This document shows positions 1-64,000 of a DNA stretch of 64,000 nt, piece by piece. The stretch lies in NCBI GenBank assembly GCA_963921795.1, contig OY997654.1, positions 878,867 through 942,866 of the forward strand, in the 5' to 3' direction. The stretch comes from Nannobrachium achirus. Lineage: Eukaryota > Chordata > Actinopteri > Myctophiformes > Myctophidae. The notes under the pieces are model-generated. The model was not told the origin of the DNA. It made no database searches and worked only from the letters and a program-made list of their open reading frames with translations. Position 1 is the stretch's first letter, and every line of letters starts with the position of its first letter. The position numbers were made by a program, and so were the translations under genes.

Positions 1-61
1 CTCGCACTGCGAGGCGTTGTGTGCTTGTAGATCTGCTATTTTCTGCCCGACAGTGACAATA
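1..61. mobile_element. TA-target MITE (family A), partial at window edge
   Basis: The window opens inside a short palindromic MITE. Positions 1-42 are the right arm of the recurrent hairpin (GCGAGGCGTTGTGTGCTTGT then AGATCTGCTATTTTC). It is followed directly by GCCCGACAGTGACAATA, a diverged form of the family end CCCGACAACGACGATA seen intact at 31200-31218. The usual spacer between hairpin and end is missing. Confidence 0.7.
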
Positions 62-69
62 TGACAGGA

Positions 70-165
70 GTCGGATTCAGACCAGGCTCCTCAAAAGTTG
101 CAAGGAACGTGTGGTCAGTGCACTAACTCATTGAGCTACCGCAGCCCCCGTACGCCCCACAATGA
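70..165 (-). repeat. tRNA-derived SINE head
   Basis: Read on the minus strand there is an A-box-like TAGCTCAATGAGTTAG and, about 40 bases later, a B-box-like GGTCTGAATCC, the spacing of a tRNA-type pol III promoter. The B box departs from GGTTCGANTCC, so this is a diverged SINE head and not a working tRNA gene. No tail was identified. Confidence 0.55.
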
Positions 166-665
166 CCAGTTATGGACATGTATATCTACTTCTAAAATAA
201 AAGCCCATCCCCCCCAGCTGTCTGACTCACATTATAAAGCACTAAGTTGGCAGTGACTAAGAAGCAACTGAGTGGGAAAAAAGGAAATCTGCAGTGCATT
301 AGCACCAGTTTTTCTTAGCGGGAAGCACAAAGTAGCCTGCTATTATTAGAACAGCAACATCCTATGGCAGTCACAACAACAAACTGCAGGGCGAAACAAA
401 AACGGGTACAAACATGCTGCATGCATCTGCGCTATAAATAGTTTGCATGATTCAGCTCTGTTTGAGGGTTGTTCTTTCCGACTTTATATTGACTCTTTTT
501 GAACGACACAGGCATTTATCACCGGTAAAGTCACCGGTAACGAGAGGTCGTAACGTTGCTTTTTTCATTGAACGTCTCAACACGCAGCCTGGCTGTTTCT
601 GCTCAAGCCAACAACATTAAATACAAGATTCTAAGAAGCAATGAAAAATGGGGAATGAAAAACAA
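166..665. other. No recognised feature
   Basis: AT-leaning sequence with no hairpin copy, terminal repeat, box promoter or convincing open frame seen on either strand. Confidence 0.5.
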
Positions 666-759
666 TGTGTGTGTGTGTGTGTGTGTGTGTGTGTGTGTGT
701 GTGTGTGTGTGTGTGTGTGTGTGTGTGTGTGTGTGTGTGTGTGTGTGTGTGTGTGTGTG
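666..759. repeat. (TG)n microsatellite
   Basis: Uninterrupted TG run of about 94 bases followed by a purine-rich GA/GGA stretch to about 842. The open frames across it (poly-VC or poly-TH) are artefacts of the dinucleotide. Confidence 0.98.
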
Positions 760-842
760 AGTTTAAGAGAGAAAAAAGGGGGAGGGAGAGCTACATTTAG
801 GCATGGCGGGACTCGGGAGAGAGAGAAAAAAAGGAGAGGAGG

Positions 843-1145
843 ATAAGCATAGCTCTCTCCAATACGAACAAAAACAGTCATTTTGCACAGAGGCCACCCT
901 GTAGCCTGGAAAGAATATCTCCATGGAAATAAAAAGGCGTGTCCCTCAGCTGAGCGCCCGGGGAACCAGTTAGTCAATCCTGCGCTGCACAGACCTCAAC
1001 ACAAATGTTCTAGAGCAGAGAAGAACTCAGGGGAAATAATTGAATCTTGTATCTACCGGTAAGACGCCTAAGGGCAAAAAGCGGCCTGCCCTTACCTCAC
1101 CCTAAAGGGCGAGGTCACGCCATCTGTCTTGGCCATCTGTCTTGG
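843..1145. other. Spacer with a repeated CGGTAAGACGCCTAAGGG segment
   Basis: Mostly unremarkable. The segment from 1056 (CGGTAAGACGCCTAAGGGC) reappears diverged at about 2352 (CAGTAAGATGCCTAAGGGA), in both cases beside a CCATATATGG minisatellite block, so it belongs to that composite repeat. Confidence 0.5.
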
Positions 1146-1400
1146 CCATATATGGATTCTGTTATTGTGGTTCTCTTAAAAGGGCATCATCTGGGATACA
1201 ATCCCTTTTATGCCCATCCCTAACAGAATCCCTTATATGCCAATATATGGAGATCCCTGCTCTGAGTACTGACATCACTAATCCCTTTCATGCCCATATA
1301 TGGAGATCCCTGCTCTAAGTATATGACATCACTGTGATGTCACCTGTTTGTGCCTATATATGGAGAGCCCTGCTCTGAGTATCTGACATCACTGCGATGT
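1146..1400. repeat. CCATATATGG minisatellite block 1
   Basis: Irregular units of about 50-60 bases built on TTTATGCCCATATATGGAGA and CCTGCTCTGAGTATCTGACA. The ten-base core CCATATATGG fits the CArG-box consensus CC(A/T)6GG exactly in several units. Same repeat as 1985-2780 and 16900-18260. Confidence 0.8.
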
Positions 1401-1412
1401 CTCCTGTGATGT

Positions 1413-1537
1413 GACGCGGTGCGAGGCGTTGTGTGCTTGTAGATCTGCTATTTTCACTAGTTTAGTTCATTTTTAAAACGATTAATACAAAACGAAAGGT
1501 CTTAGACATACAAGGTTTCCACCCGACAACGACGATA
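1413..1537 (+). mobile_element. TA-target MITE (family A), 5'-truncated
   Basis: Right part of family A: hairpin right arm (GGTGCGAGGCGTTGTGTGCT, TTGTAGATCTGCTATTTTCAC), the AT-rich spacer after CACTAGTTTA, then GGTTTCCACCCGACAACGAC and GATA at the end. The left half is absent; the upstream neighbour is the minisatellite. Confidence 0.8.
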
Positions 1538-1557
1538 TACATACATACATACATACA

Positions 1558-61429: not shown

Positions 61430-61602
61430 TCACACCAACATACCTATGAGAGTGGAATCCGCGTTCCGCCAATGCATTTCAATGATAAGGGAGTGTTTTT
61501 TTGCAGAAATCCTCTGCTGGCATGAAACTGCTTCACTCTCATTGCAATGCATTGGCGGAACGCGGATTCCACTCTCATAGGTACTTTGGTGTGAGGGCAC
61601 CC
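61430..61602. mobile_element. Harbinger-like MITE M, second of two
   Basis: Fused to the first at GGGCACCC|TCACACC, lacking its own outer bases. Ends GGTGTGAGGGCACCC then ATA. Confidence 0.87.
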
Positions 61603-61966
61603 ATACAAGTAAAGTTCCGGAATTCAAATTGTACTTGAGTAAAAGTACAAAAGTATTGGCATCAAAATGTACTTAAAGTACCAAAAGTAAAAGTACAACA
61701 TGTTTGAAAATAGCCTATGGCATAAAATAGGGCTAAAGTGGTTTATGCATGTTTTATAATATTATAATTTATATCTGCAAAGTAACTGGTAACTAAAGTT
61801 TTCAAACAAATGCAGGGGAGTAAAAGTACAATATTTGGATCCGAGATGTAGTGGAGTAGAAGTAAAAGTATTGGAAATTAGAAGAACTCAAGTAAAGTAC
61901 AAATACCTCAAAACTGTACGTTACTTAAGTAAATGTACTTAGTTACTTTACACCACTGCATTTAGC

Positions 61967-62175
61967 TTATGTCAAGGCAAGGCACGTACATGAAAACTCC
62001 CTTCTAAAGACAGTAATGTACTGTAATCATGATAGTCTTGCCTTAATTGCCTTGAAAGGAAATCAGTCCAATCCGGATCACCTTGACATGTCATCCCAAC
62101 TATTTCAATTACAGTAGATAAAGCAAATAATAATGAATGCACAGGTGCTTGTTGTCCTTGTCACGTTCTGAGGCA
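61967..62175. other. No recognised feature
   Basis: Short spacer between elements. Confidence 0.4.
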
Positions 62176-62300
62176 GGCTAAAGCAGTGATTCTCAACCTT
62201 TTCCGGCCACGACCACCCAAAATAATCATATTTTAACTGGGGACCTCACCAAAATAATCATATTTTAACTGGGGACCTCACCAAAATAATCATATTTTAA

Positions 62301-62850
62301 CCCTAATCGTGCCTATCCCGAACAAGTTCGGGATATTTTCAATCCAATACAATATTTTATTTGCTATTTTACTTACCCTGAGCTGCTTGGAGCAACGTGG
62401 GTGGTCCTGGCTCGTCCAGCGCTTACCAACGAGAGACGCTAGATGGTCCGACGATTTATTCCATTGAAAATGTTTTAAAATAAAGTTTAGAGCCCCCCCC
62501 AAAAAAACTCAATCTATACTGTCGGCGGCGCGACGTATTCCAGGGTGCCTATCCCGATCTAGTTCGGGATATTTAATGAAATTAATTATTTAATCGGAGG
62601 CCTCAACGAAGCCCCGGTCTAAATTTCCATCCATGGCCGGGGCCGACACTCGGCCATCCACGGGCCGTATTCGCGCAAACGGCCGCATCGCGCTTAAGCG
62701 TAAGCTAACTTCCTCCTCTCGTCACCCATAGCATTGGCTGGAGTGAAATCCCAAGGCACTTCGGACAGTGTCGACGGAAGCTAGAGCGAAAGCCTATAGA
62801 GATTTTTCTGGCACTCTAGCGGCCACTTGTGGCCCGGGGCACTGTATGAG
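62301..62850. mobile_element. 550-bp TTAA-target insertion, piggyBac-like ends
   Basis: TTAA at 62297-62300 and 62851-62854. The D text ATTTTAACTGGGGACC is split exactly there. Starts CCCTAATCGTGCC, ends GGCACTGTATGAG (partly inverted). Contains two GTGCCTATCCCGA blocks, each with a small CCCGAAC-GTTCGGG or CCCGATC-GTTCGGG hairpin (62315-62335, 62550-62572). Non-coding. Confidence 0.85.
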
Positions 62851-62923
62851 TTAACTGGGGACCGCCAACCCTGATGAGCACTAAGAGTTGAGGCATTACT
62901 TTTTGTATAACACGGTTCTATTG

Positions 62924-62998
62924 TAAAAATAACAGATCTACATGCTCACAACGCCTCGCATTGCGAGGCATTGTGAGCATGTAGATCGGCTATTTTCC
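62924..62998. repeat. Window-wide hairpin, D/G variant
   Basis: GTAAAAATAACAGATCTACA, TGCTCACAACGCCTCGCATT, GCGAGGCATTGTGAGCATGT, AGATCGGCTATTTTC. Confidence 0.94.
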
Positions 62999-63438
62999 CA
63001 ATTTCTGCCTCTAATATTTGACAATTTGACCAATGTTTAATTTGTCATTTTAGAAGTATTAAACGTCCTTAAATTGTCACTTTAGAAATGTGCAGATACC
63101 CTATACACTTAAACTTTATGTTGAATTGTTGTTTGCTGTTGAGTGAGAAAACAATGTTTCACATTAAGTTAATCATCTGGGGACCCCCCAAAATAATTTG
63201 GGGACCCCCCTGGGGGTCCCGACCCACAGGTTGAGAACCAGTGTGCTAAAGGATAGTGCTGCAACTCATATGATGGTGTTTTTTTGAGCGGTGGTCACAC
63301 CGTCTCCATAGCGTGGCCGTGTGTGTAGGTATGTTTGTTTGTTAGTTTGTTTGTATGTGGGTGGGTCTGTATGTAGCCTCAAGCCTGTGTAGTACCTTTT
63401 CTGACCACACATGTTAAGGGAGGGGCGCTGTTGTCCAG

Positions 63439-63512
63439 GCCACACACACACACACACACACACACACACACACACACACACACACACACACACACACACA
63501 CACACACACACA
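63439..63512. repeat. (CA)n microsatellite
   Basis: CA run of about 74 bases followed by a G9 tract. Confidence 0.98.
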
Positions 63513-63570
63513 CGGGGGGGGGGAACCACCGCTCAGTTCACACGGGTGTGATTTTTTTGTTTTTTTTATT

Positions 63571-64000
63571 AGAGCCATGACTGATAATATATCGGTCTGG
63601 TCGATATATCAGCATGGACAATATATCGGCATCGGTCTGGTCGATATATGGACGATTATTTGACTTTTTGAACAATATTGGTATCAGAAAGGATGCAGCC
63701 GATCTGTCCTGCACACTTTCAACCTGGTGTCCCTATTCTAGGCATGTCATCATTACATAGGAGAACATTTTCTCAAAAACAACATGTCTACAAGCTTGTA
63801 GATCGTCTATTTTTAAGTAGTTAAATAAAATGTTATTGTGTTTTATTTTTATTTTCTTGGCATTAAAGTTATACGTTCTCATAGAAAATGTTATCAAAAA
63901 AGCTTTTAAAATTGATTCGGAAAATGTTGCAATTTTTGACAAAACATTTTCTACGAATCCAAAATTGTTATCGACATCGGAACCAGAATTTTAAGTATTT
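63571..64000. mobile_element. Possible transposon with TATATCGG theme, cut by window end
   Basis: TAGAGCCATGACTGATAATA, TATCGGTCTGGTCGATATAT, GACGATTATTTGAC at the left. The text near 63970 (TATCGACATCGGAACCAG) suggests the other side. Includes a minimal hairpin at 63776-63817. Confidence 0.45.
63776..63817. repeat. Window-wide hairpin, minimal form
   Basis: AAAAACAACATGTCTACAAG then CTTGTAGATCGTCTATTTTT. Only about 20 bp per arm, with the CTACAAGCTTGTAG centre; the CpG-rich inner part is gone. Confidence 0.8.

Follow-up and report, generated by a model that had tools for sequence, protein, structure and literature searches.

Hairpin copies and their surroundings in the window

The window analyzed here is a stretch of 64,000 nucleotides from the myctophid fish Nannobrachium achirus (contig OY997654.1, positions 878,867 to 942,866; GC content 41.1%), in which a short palindromic hairpin recurs within several kinds of transposable elements. 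A hairpin profile built from 10 window copies (nhmmer bit scores) matched 33 sites in the window, in line with the original prediction that an inverted repeat of about 70-80 bp occurs there about 35 times. The number of profile matches was 114 in the 288-kb survey set of the first profile run, and reached 160 in 328 kb with the addition of 40 further 1-kb loci (L029-L068), which were picked around exact arm matches and are thus a non-random sample. The unit spans about 73 bp and is palindromic almost throughout, with the layout GAAAATAGC-(A/C)-GATCTACAAGCTCACAACG, about 15 nt including a 3-nt loop, and the reverse complement; after the outer 9-mer GAAAATAGC come an arm of 20 nt (AGATCTACAAGCTCACAACG), a self-complementary centre rich in GC with the 3-nt loop, and the mirrored half. 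With up to 5 mismatches allowed, the arm was found 51 times in the window vs. 2 times in total across ten Markov sequences. An assembly-wide search, as had been recommended with the original prediction, confirmed the abundance of the hairpin, with 86,252 and 84,807 arm matches at no more than 1 mismatch and 0 for the reversed-pattern control, and the exact arm had 0 matches in viral contigs. In addition, a sample of 20 stretches of 10 kb (181,366 non-N bases; sites chosen by the authors, at 20 Mb in contig 1 and between 0.6 and 4 Mb in contigs 2-20) contained 68 copies, i.e., 0.37 per kb compared with 0.52 per kb in the window. The window is only mildly hairpin-rich relative to this genome sample, and extrapolation from the 20 stretches gives an estimated genome total of about 6 x 10^5 hairpin copies, partial ones counted. 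The best-preserved copy (27984..28056; 81.3 bits) with 5 nt on each side was predicted to form a single 40-bp stem with a 3-nt loop (DNA fold, -48.4 kcal/mol, z -16.2; RNA fold, -72.7 kcal/mol, z -15.6), although these folds decide nothing because any such palindrome would fold strongly.

Outward flanks of the hairpin copies were clustered into host groups (A-J, T, and Q), nine of which were represented in the window, namely A and C (7 copies each), D and B (4 each), E (3), and F, G, H, and I (1 each), with 4 copies ungrouped. Host A hairpins were located by the profile at 8462..8534, 49060..49132, and 53068..53133, and by the profile together with clustering at 4800..4850, 31092..31152, 1410..1455, and 14317..14364, the last two being partial. 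The best-preserved copy belongs to host C and lies in a hAT-type element (CAGTGGTTCTC..; 27741..28178) with an exact 8-bp duplication (CCCTAAAC), and another hAT-type bracket (TAGGGCATTC..; 18890..19408; 8-bp duplication GTGTAAGT) encloses a C-type hairpin context, in which a shortened hairpin of subtype C2 is situated at 19225..19275. A further host C hairpin was matched by the profile at 62926..62997, and half hairpins of this host occur at 7615..7650, 34025..34056, 46580..46615, and 53674..53701 (these and the C2 copy by profile and clustering). Host F is a hAT-type element (CAGTGTTG..; 5503..6035) with the exact 8-bp duplication TACAGTAT on both sides and a hairpin at 5743..5815 (80.8 bits). 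Two D elements were found in hAT-type brackets, each with two hairpins matched by the profile: one at 23716..24265 (CAGGGGCGTCA..; exact 8-bp duplication TAGACAGA) with hairpins at 23797..23869 and 24124..24196, and one at 48139..48712 (8-bp duplication AGGTCAGG) with hairpins at 48220..48291, the centre of which is rearranged, and 48571..48637.

A TTAA bracket search identified in host B a smaller element bounded on each side by TTAA (32703..32891), hereafter called a carrier, which lies within a hAT-like element and has a shortened hairpin (32787..32843; profile) as its core. The other B-type copies are a host B hairpin at 56529..56603 and a decayed one with a B-type flank at 52705..52781 (both by profile and clustering), and a hairpin at 41925..41990 with a B-type flank, a TTAA carrier end 47 nt away, and surroundings unlike those of usual B copies (clustering and end motif). 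Host E comprises hairpins at 6874..6960, with extra CTTGTAGATC-like units, and 29320..29385 (both by profile and clustering), as well as the feature at 57730..57839, where the carrier end TTAACCACTTTAGCCC at 57730 precedes a hairpin at 57767-57839 (profile and end motif). Profile and clustering also placed a hairpin of host H at 12739..12811, a decayed one of host G at 34370..34438, and one of host I (AGGGCTGTCACGATTATG..) with extra CTTGTAGAT units at 60522..60583. The ungrouped copies are a right half cut by the window start (2..43; 38.8 bits, nhmmer), a decayed hairpin at 21532..21598 with a TTAA carrier end (TTAACCACTTAAG; 21496..21499) 36 nt away (profile and end motif), a decayed hairpin at 40063..40110 (22.1 bits), and a shortened one at 51558..51598 (profile). 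A copy had also been proposed at 63776, where only a short remnant was recovered.

Apart from the hairpin, a second fold-back element (..CCCTCACACCAAAATACC..GGAATCCGCCAATGCATTTCAATGAGAATGGAG..) with arms of 70-83 nt is present at 6609-6778, 14854-15043, 28658-28839, 29000-29171, 57952-58113, and 61270-61430, and also within host E copies. Moreover, a 134-codon open frame occupies 55314-55718 on the minus strand, which by eye we take to resemble the C-terminal part of a long interspersed nuclear element (LINE) reverse transcriptase.

Host families and TTAA-ended carriers

Across the 160 hairpins, 136 fell into 12 flank groups, mostly transposon families (D, 29; B, 29; A, 21; E, 16; C, 14; F, 8; J, 6; G, H, and I, 3 each; T and Q, 2 each), and 24 had no group. 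The outer ends of the hosts are unlike one another (C, CAGTGGTTCTCAACC..; F, CAGTGTTGATTTTGTCGAC..; D, CAGGGGCGTCAC..; B, CAGGGGTCTTCAACG..; E, CAGTGGTGGAAAGTAACTAAGTAC..; G, CAGGGGTGGGCAAC..; J, TAGGGATGGGACGATA..; I, TAGGGCTGTCGCAATTATT..; A, ATATCGTCGTTGTCGGGTGGAAACC..). Brackets of terminal inverted repeats (TIRs) plus 8-bp duplications enclosed 23 of 114 hairpins vs. 16 of 342 control positions; hosts C, F, and the outer element of D have the 8-bp target-site duplication and short inverted ends of the hAT superfamily, and their CAG.. ends were likened to the end sequences of fish hAT elements. Outward alignment of left vs. right flanks (inner TIR search) pointed to inverted flanks in B, A, C, H, and F, with most alignment scores within the mismatched-pair background (95th percentile, 47.5).

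Flank-profile analysis at E < 0.05 revealed same-strand homology inside each of the groups A, B, C, and D, and linked B to J (on one side, over about 100 bp, E 7e-4) and also to E (at the TTAA end, E 2e-3), with further matches to some ungrouped flanks, a weak Q-D match, and weak opposite-strand C-D matches along a stretch that resembles GGGGACCCCC. The flanks of A, C, F, G, H, and I gave no same-strand match to one another below E 0.05. By this measure, the hairpin occupies about eight flank contexts for which no common descent could be detected. These results temper the earlier view that at least a dozen unrelated families carry the hairpin and share no other sequence: several host families do carry it, but flank clustering distinguishes nine groups rather than a dozen in the window, hosts B and J as well as B and E align beyond the hairpin, an outcome that the original prediction had named as refuting and that thus holds for part of the copies, and D occurs both outside and inside hAT elements, with A, C, F, G, H, and I left as hosts whose flanks do not match each other on the same strand.

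Ten group B hairpins are enclosed in such a TTAA-bounded element, with 9-11 of 12 end bases matching. The B carrier has the layout TTAACCACTTGAACC..hairpin..GGTTCAAGTGGTTAA with TTAA-CCACTTGAACC ends on both sides (CCACTTGAACC and CCCATTTAGGCC being the end sequences of the carriers in general), and eight of the ten B carriers are 189-209 bp long, one 158 bp, and one 401 bp. Two-sided TTAA with similar ends was detected around 13 of 160 hairpins (10 of them in B) vs. 7 of 342 control positions, and 13 other tetranucleotides tested as brackets enclosed 0-7 of the 160. The motif TTAACCMMTTBRR occurred 25 times in 288 kb, in 22 cases with a hairpin 34-574 bp inward, and a carrier end lay within 100 nt of 35 of 160 hairpins (about 2.3 expected), specifically 23/29 in B, 7/29 in D, 3/16 in E, and 2/24 among the ungrouped. 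With the same strict motif and distance, it was found in 0/4 hairpins of T and Q; the 3 E copies have a single carrier end (TTAACCACTTTAGCCC), and no second end was seen among the E copies listed. The B carrier, as a short element with inverted ends, a target-site duplication, and many copies, has these properties in common with miniature inverted-repeat transposable elements (MITEs), and the TTAA target typical of the piggyBac superfamily is present on two sides in B and on one side in D. The copies listed are 0.2-0.7 kb long, and 3 of 12 B ends among those listed lie, by eye, outside the usual hAT sequence.

The D carrier is larger (about 580-620 bp), contains two hairpins, one per half, and terminates in ..CTAAATGGGTTAA, with five different sequences following GGGTTAA in five copies. 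Two D copies (L010 and L014) are inside a hAT-D element, with the hAT terminus 81 and 89 nt farther out, and in 13 of 16 D flanks without a carrier end the distance from hairpin to hAT-D terminus is 69-116 nt. Among these 13 flanks, seven (K06) are the same hAT side on which L010 and L014 retain TTAA, shortened in several different ways, and erosion of the nested carrier in hAT-D is thus shown on this side; for K10, the opposite side, none of the D flanks examined showed an intact carrier end. The suggestion that the hairpin is a small parasite nested in transposons is upheld for B and D as to nesting, with the qualification that the mobile unit there is the larger TTAA-ended element, which has the hairpin at its core in B and one in each half in D.

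Other arrangements of the same material were also observed, including a tandem array of a D-derived unit (CTGTGAGCTTGTATATCTAAAGTTACCAGGGC..) at about 60-660 of locus L001, in which a hairpin arm has become a satellite, and a head-to-head hairpin pair around a CTACGTAGC repeat (L042:446-644), with inverted host sequence and long stretches of CA/CG repeats around it. As for potential sources of transposase, 116 scored matches to PF13843 (DDE_Tnp_1_7) were obtained among 952 candidates in the genome. Sixteen of the 116 are in one 0.5-Mb cluster (contig C2, about 71.35-71.84 Mb; 15 without internal stops), which could be a local gene family, and matches within open frames of 2,461 and 3,951 codons at L070 (C18:60345001) and C1:82177671 possibly represent fused or domesticated genes. 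At about 1-560 of locus L071, a tandem palindromic repeat (GTGCAAAGCCTATGGGAGGCTGAGATCACGAG..) adjoins a piggyBac-type transposase.

Pairing, loop orientation, and deletion of the palindrome

The family consensuses are mostly near-perfect palindromes (that of G from 2 copies and that of H from 3), and where families differ, the two arms carry matching changes (e.g., A, GCACACAACG; C, ACATGC; G, TCAAAACG; H, GACCTCCAAG). In a set of 12 chosen, well-preserved hairpins from nine groups, 19 of 42 stem pairs were changed on both sides, and 91.1% of the cells were paired vs. a shuffled mean of 81.7% (none of 500 shuffles reached the observed value; 33-44% in slid controls), a shuffle control that can be inflated by kinship of the sequences. 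Although the sequence of the eight outermost pairs is particular to each host, 80 of their 96 cells are paired. One stem pair, next to ATAGC, is mismatched in 10 of the 12 hairpins (A opposite G, or C opposite T), with AGATC in one arm and CGATC in the other, and D has mostly A in both arms.

The copies of single hosts revealed changes of other kinds. Exact C flanks were 55-85 bp apart in 1,391 forms vs. 0-30 bp in 194 forms, and exact E flanks gave 176 filled vs. 35 short forms, indicating that the hairpin is deletion-prone. Within one flank context, the loop was found in both orientations, with 23 GTT and 12 AAC among 45 C copies (46 full-length copies chosen by eye among 100 listed of the 1,391, 45 after a distance filter) and 22 ATC and 11 GAT among 43 E copies (full-length, among 100 listed of the 176). 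Twelve of the 35 short E forms are identical and 4 share another form; deletion between two GGCTATTT repeats would explain the 12.

Origin of the hairpin and comparison with known systems

Taking these lines of evidence together, we give about an even chance to the reading that the hairpin is the palindromic core of a clan of TTAA-ended MITEs and was spread by nesting and host amplification. A diversified clan of non-autonomous DNA transposons with TTAA ends and a conserved hairpin core would have been moved by a TTAA-type transposase, and the hosts by hAT-type and other transposases. Carriers would also have inserted into the founding elements of A, C, E, F, G, H, and I and been eroded there to the hairpin plus a few pairs of a carrier-specific outer stem, and the host transposases may have multiplied the nested hairpins to an estimated 10^5-10^6 copies. 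The long-term pairing could be kept by exchange between arms through template switching, which the flipped loop may reflect, or because copies that remain mobile require it, or for both reasons, and individual copies would later decay, losing parts of the hairpin by deletion. A bolder proposal, which we regard as unlikely, is that one short palindrome selected for pairing has been exchanged among transposon superfamilies (TTAA-, hAT-, and A-type) and aids carrier amplification, e.g., as a hairpin or cruciform at replication, and that it would be the DNA-transposon counterpart of the highly conserved domains of short interspersed nuclear elements (SINEs).

Several observations weigh against the nested-carrier origin. 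With the strict motif, a carrier end within 100 nt was found in 0/52 hairpins of A, C, F, G, H, and I, for which reason carrier descent of these hosts is inferred rather than seen, and in 0/6 of J. A pre-insertion site for B, with flanks joined at a single TTAA, had 0 matches at no more than 1 mismatch; about ten copies are in DNA that looks unique by eye; and no hairpin arm was present within about 1.5 kb on either side of 4 of the 116 piggyBac-type loci (part of one being N). One pair of D copies shows full identity for 36 nt inside TTAA and 56% identity outside, but among 21 D pairs the ranges overlap (inside, 0.71-1.00; outside, 0.46-0.84), making this a soft comparison, and the left ends of the two standalone D copies that were read whole are TTGA (L010) and TGTA (L027) rather than intact TTAA. 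The lower non-CpG change of the core (3.5-9.7% vs. 10-37% in flanks, families A-F, some flank sets being mixed), which counts in favour of this origin, is partly selection bias because the copies were found via the hairpin. The 12 identical short E forms may be a hairpin-less subfamily, older or derived, and the short C forms were rejected as ancestral empty sites, since the 100 listed appeared on visual inspection to be deletions of many kinds. In single copies, double changes were mirrored in 4 of 5 cases in C (1.4 expected), 8 of 19 across host groups (3.7 expected), and 6 of 8 in E (7.3 expected), so that the putative exchange between arms shows as a weak excess of mirrored changes or none.

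Some of these points favour the rather unlikely alternative that the bare hairpin is itself mobile, as a tiny fold-back element with perhaps palindromic targets that enters transposons and unique DNA and is then amplified by its hosts. That the flanks of A, C, D, F, G, H, and I lack homology on the same strand is consistent with this, as are the copies in apparently unique DNA, one of which (L021:325-384) has a D-type core outside the D context, and the apparent symmetry of flanks just beyond the core, where positions 2-8 match in 38-71% of 24 group representatives vs. 27-38% of mismatched pairs, with no difference at one position. On the other hand, neither a constant target-site duplication nor a constant outer end was seen by eye, the B and D copies are part of a larger TTAA unit, and flank searches for B and C revealed no empty site. 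The strong DNA hairpin, the two loop orientations, and the covarying stem would also suit an Angel-like amplification via single-stranded hairpin DNA at replication, with palindromy renewed at each copying, which we consider improbable given that many copies reside in hosts with cut-and-paste-type ends and 8-bp or TTAA duplications and that private changes are mostly unmirrored.

The compensatory changes, together with the very stable RNA fold, also speak for a transcribed hairpin (a small-RNA precursor or an RNA signal) whose RNA pairing is under selection. This possibility, already raised in the original prediction, gained no support and is rated slightly lower still, in that G.T and A.C mismatches were similar in number (C, 26 v 28; host groups, 44 v 45 from 37 of 91 grouped copies with both arms alignable and gap-free; E, 40 v 52) and Rfam at gathering score gave 0 matches in the window. 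The best-preserved copy had sub-threshold Rfam matches to several unrelated microRNA and hairpin models (the best, MIR2600, 59.3 bits vs. 98), taken as reflecting structure only, and five other loci gave at E <= 1e-4 a single weak match, away from the main hairpin. Least probable of all, we judge, is that the hairpin is an internal segment conserved from a single old hAT lineage, the ends of which have diverged beyond recognition: several outer hosts do have hAT-like ends and 8-bp duplications, but the hairpin position differs from host to host, the ends of host A are not hAT-like, and the hairpin also occurs in TTAA-ended D elements outside recognized hAT sequence, which contradicts this explanation in part.

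With regard to known systems, the Angel elements of teleost fish, reportedly described by Izsvak and coworkers in 1999 (J Mol Evol 48:13, as listed in PMC2872659), are said to be short, highly amplified, hairpin-forming inverted-repeat elements, for which amplification via single-stranded hairpin DNA in replication is said to have been proposed. The hairpin here is likewise short, highly amplified, and hairpin-capable, a likeness in description, but unlike Angel it is common to several host families with different ends and lies inside TTAA carriers. The hAT target is 8 bp (PMC2874221), and the outer hosts C, D, and F resemble hAT MITEs in their 8-bp duplications and CAG.. ends, although such MITEs are here vehicles and not the common part. 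piggyBac-type MITEs have a TTAA target and inverted ends, as do the carriers, and piggyBac-type transposases are abundant in this genome; the long conserved core palindrome is a difference, not being mentioned for piggyBac in the part of the source consulted (PMC2874221). Loops between inverted repeats that occur in both orientations have been described as hairpin-associated minute inversions (Kelchner and Wendel 1996, cited in PMC3123225), and, in the portion of that source consulted, flipped loops mark hairpin-driven inversion in plastids and avian inversion hotspots lack stem-loops; those cases concern plastid spacers, whereas the present ones are copies of one genomic repeat.

Transposon nesting and host amplification are already known, e.g., from MER6/MER6A, which, in the part of the report consulted, is a mariner MITE with an inserted V-SINE bearing a highly conserved domain (PMC6887750). 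In both systems a conserved module has spread by riding inside a DNA transposon, but MER6 involves one host lineage and a SINE module, as far as that part of the report goes, and the present system a palindrome, several host families, and many more copies. The very many replicates provide a natural experiment on palindrome mutation, flipping, and deletion, and could let one test for selection of DNA structure across transposon superfamilies. A title and abstract search of open-licence papers listed no palindrome common to several MITE families, nor a single core palindrome that has reached so many copies through several host families with its pairing kept as the outer stems change.

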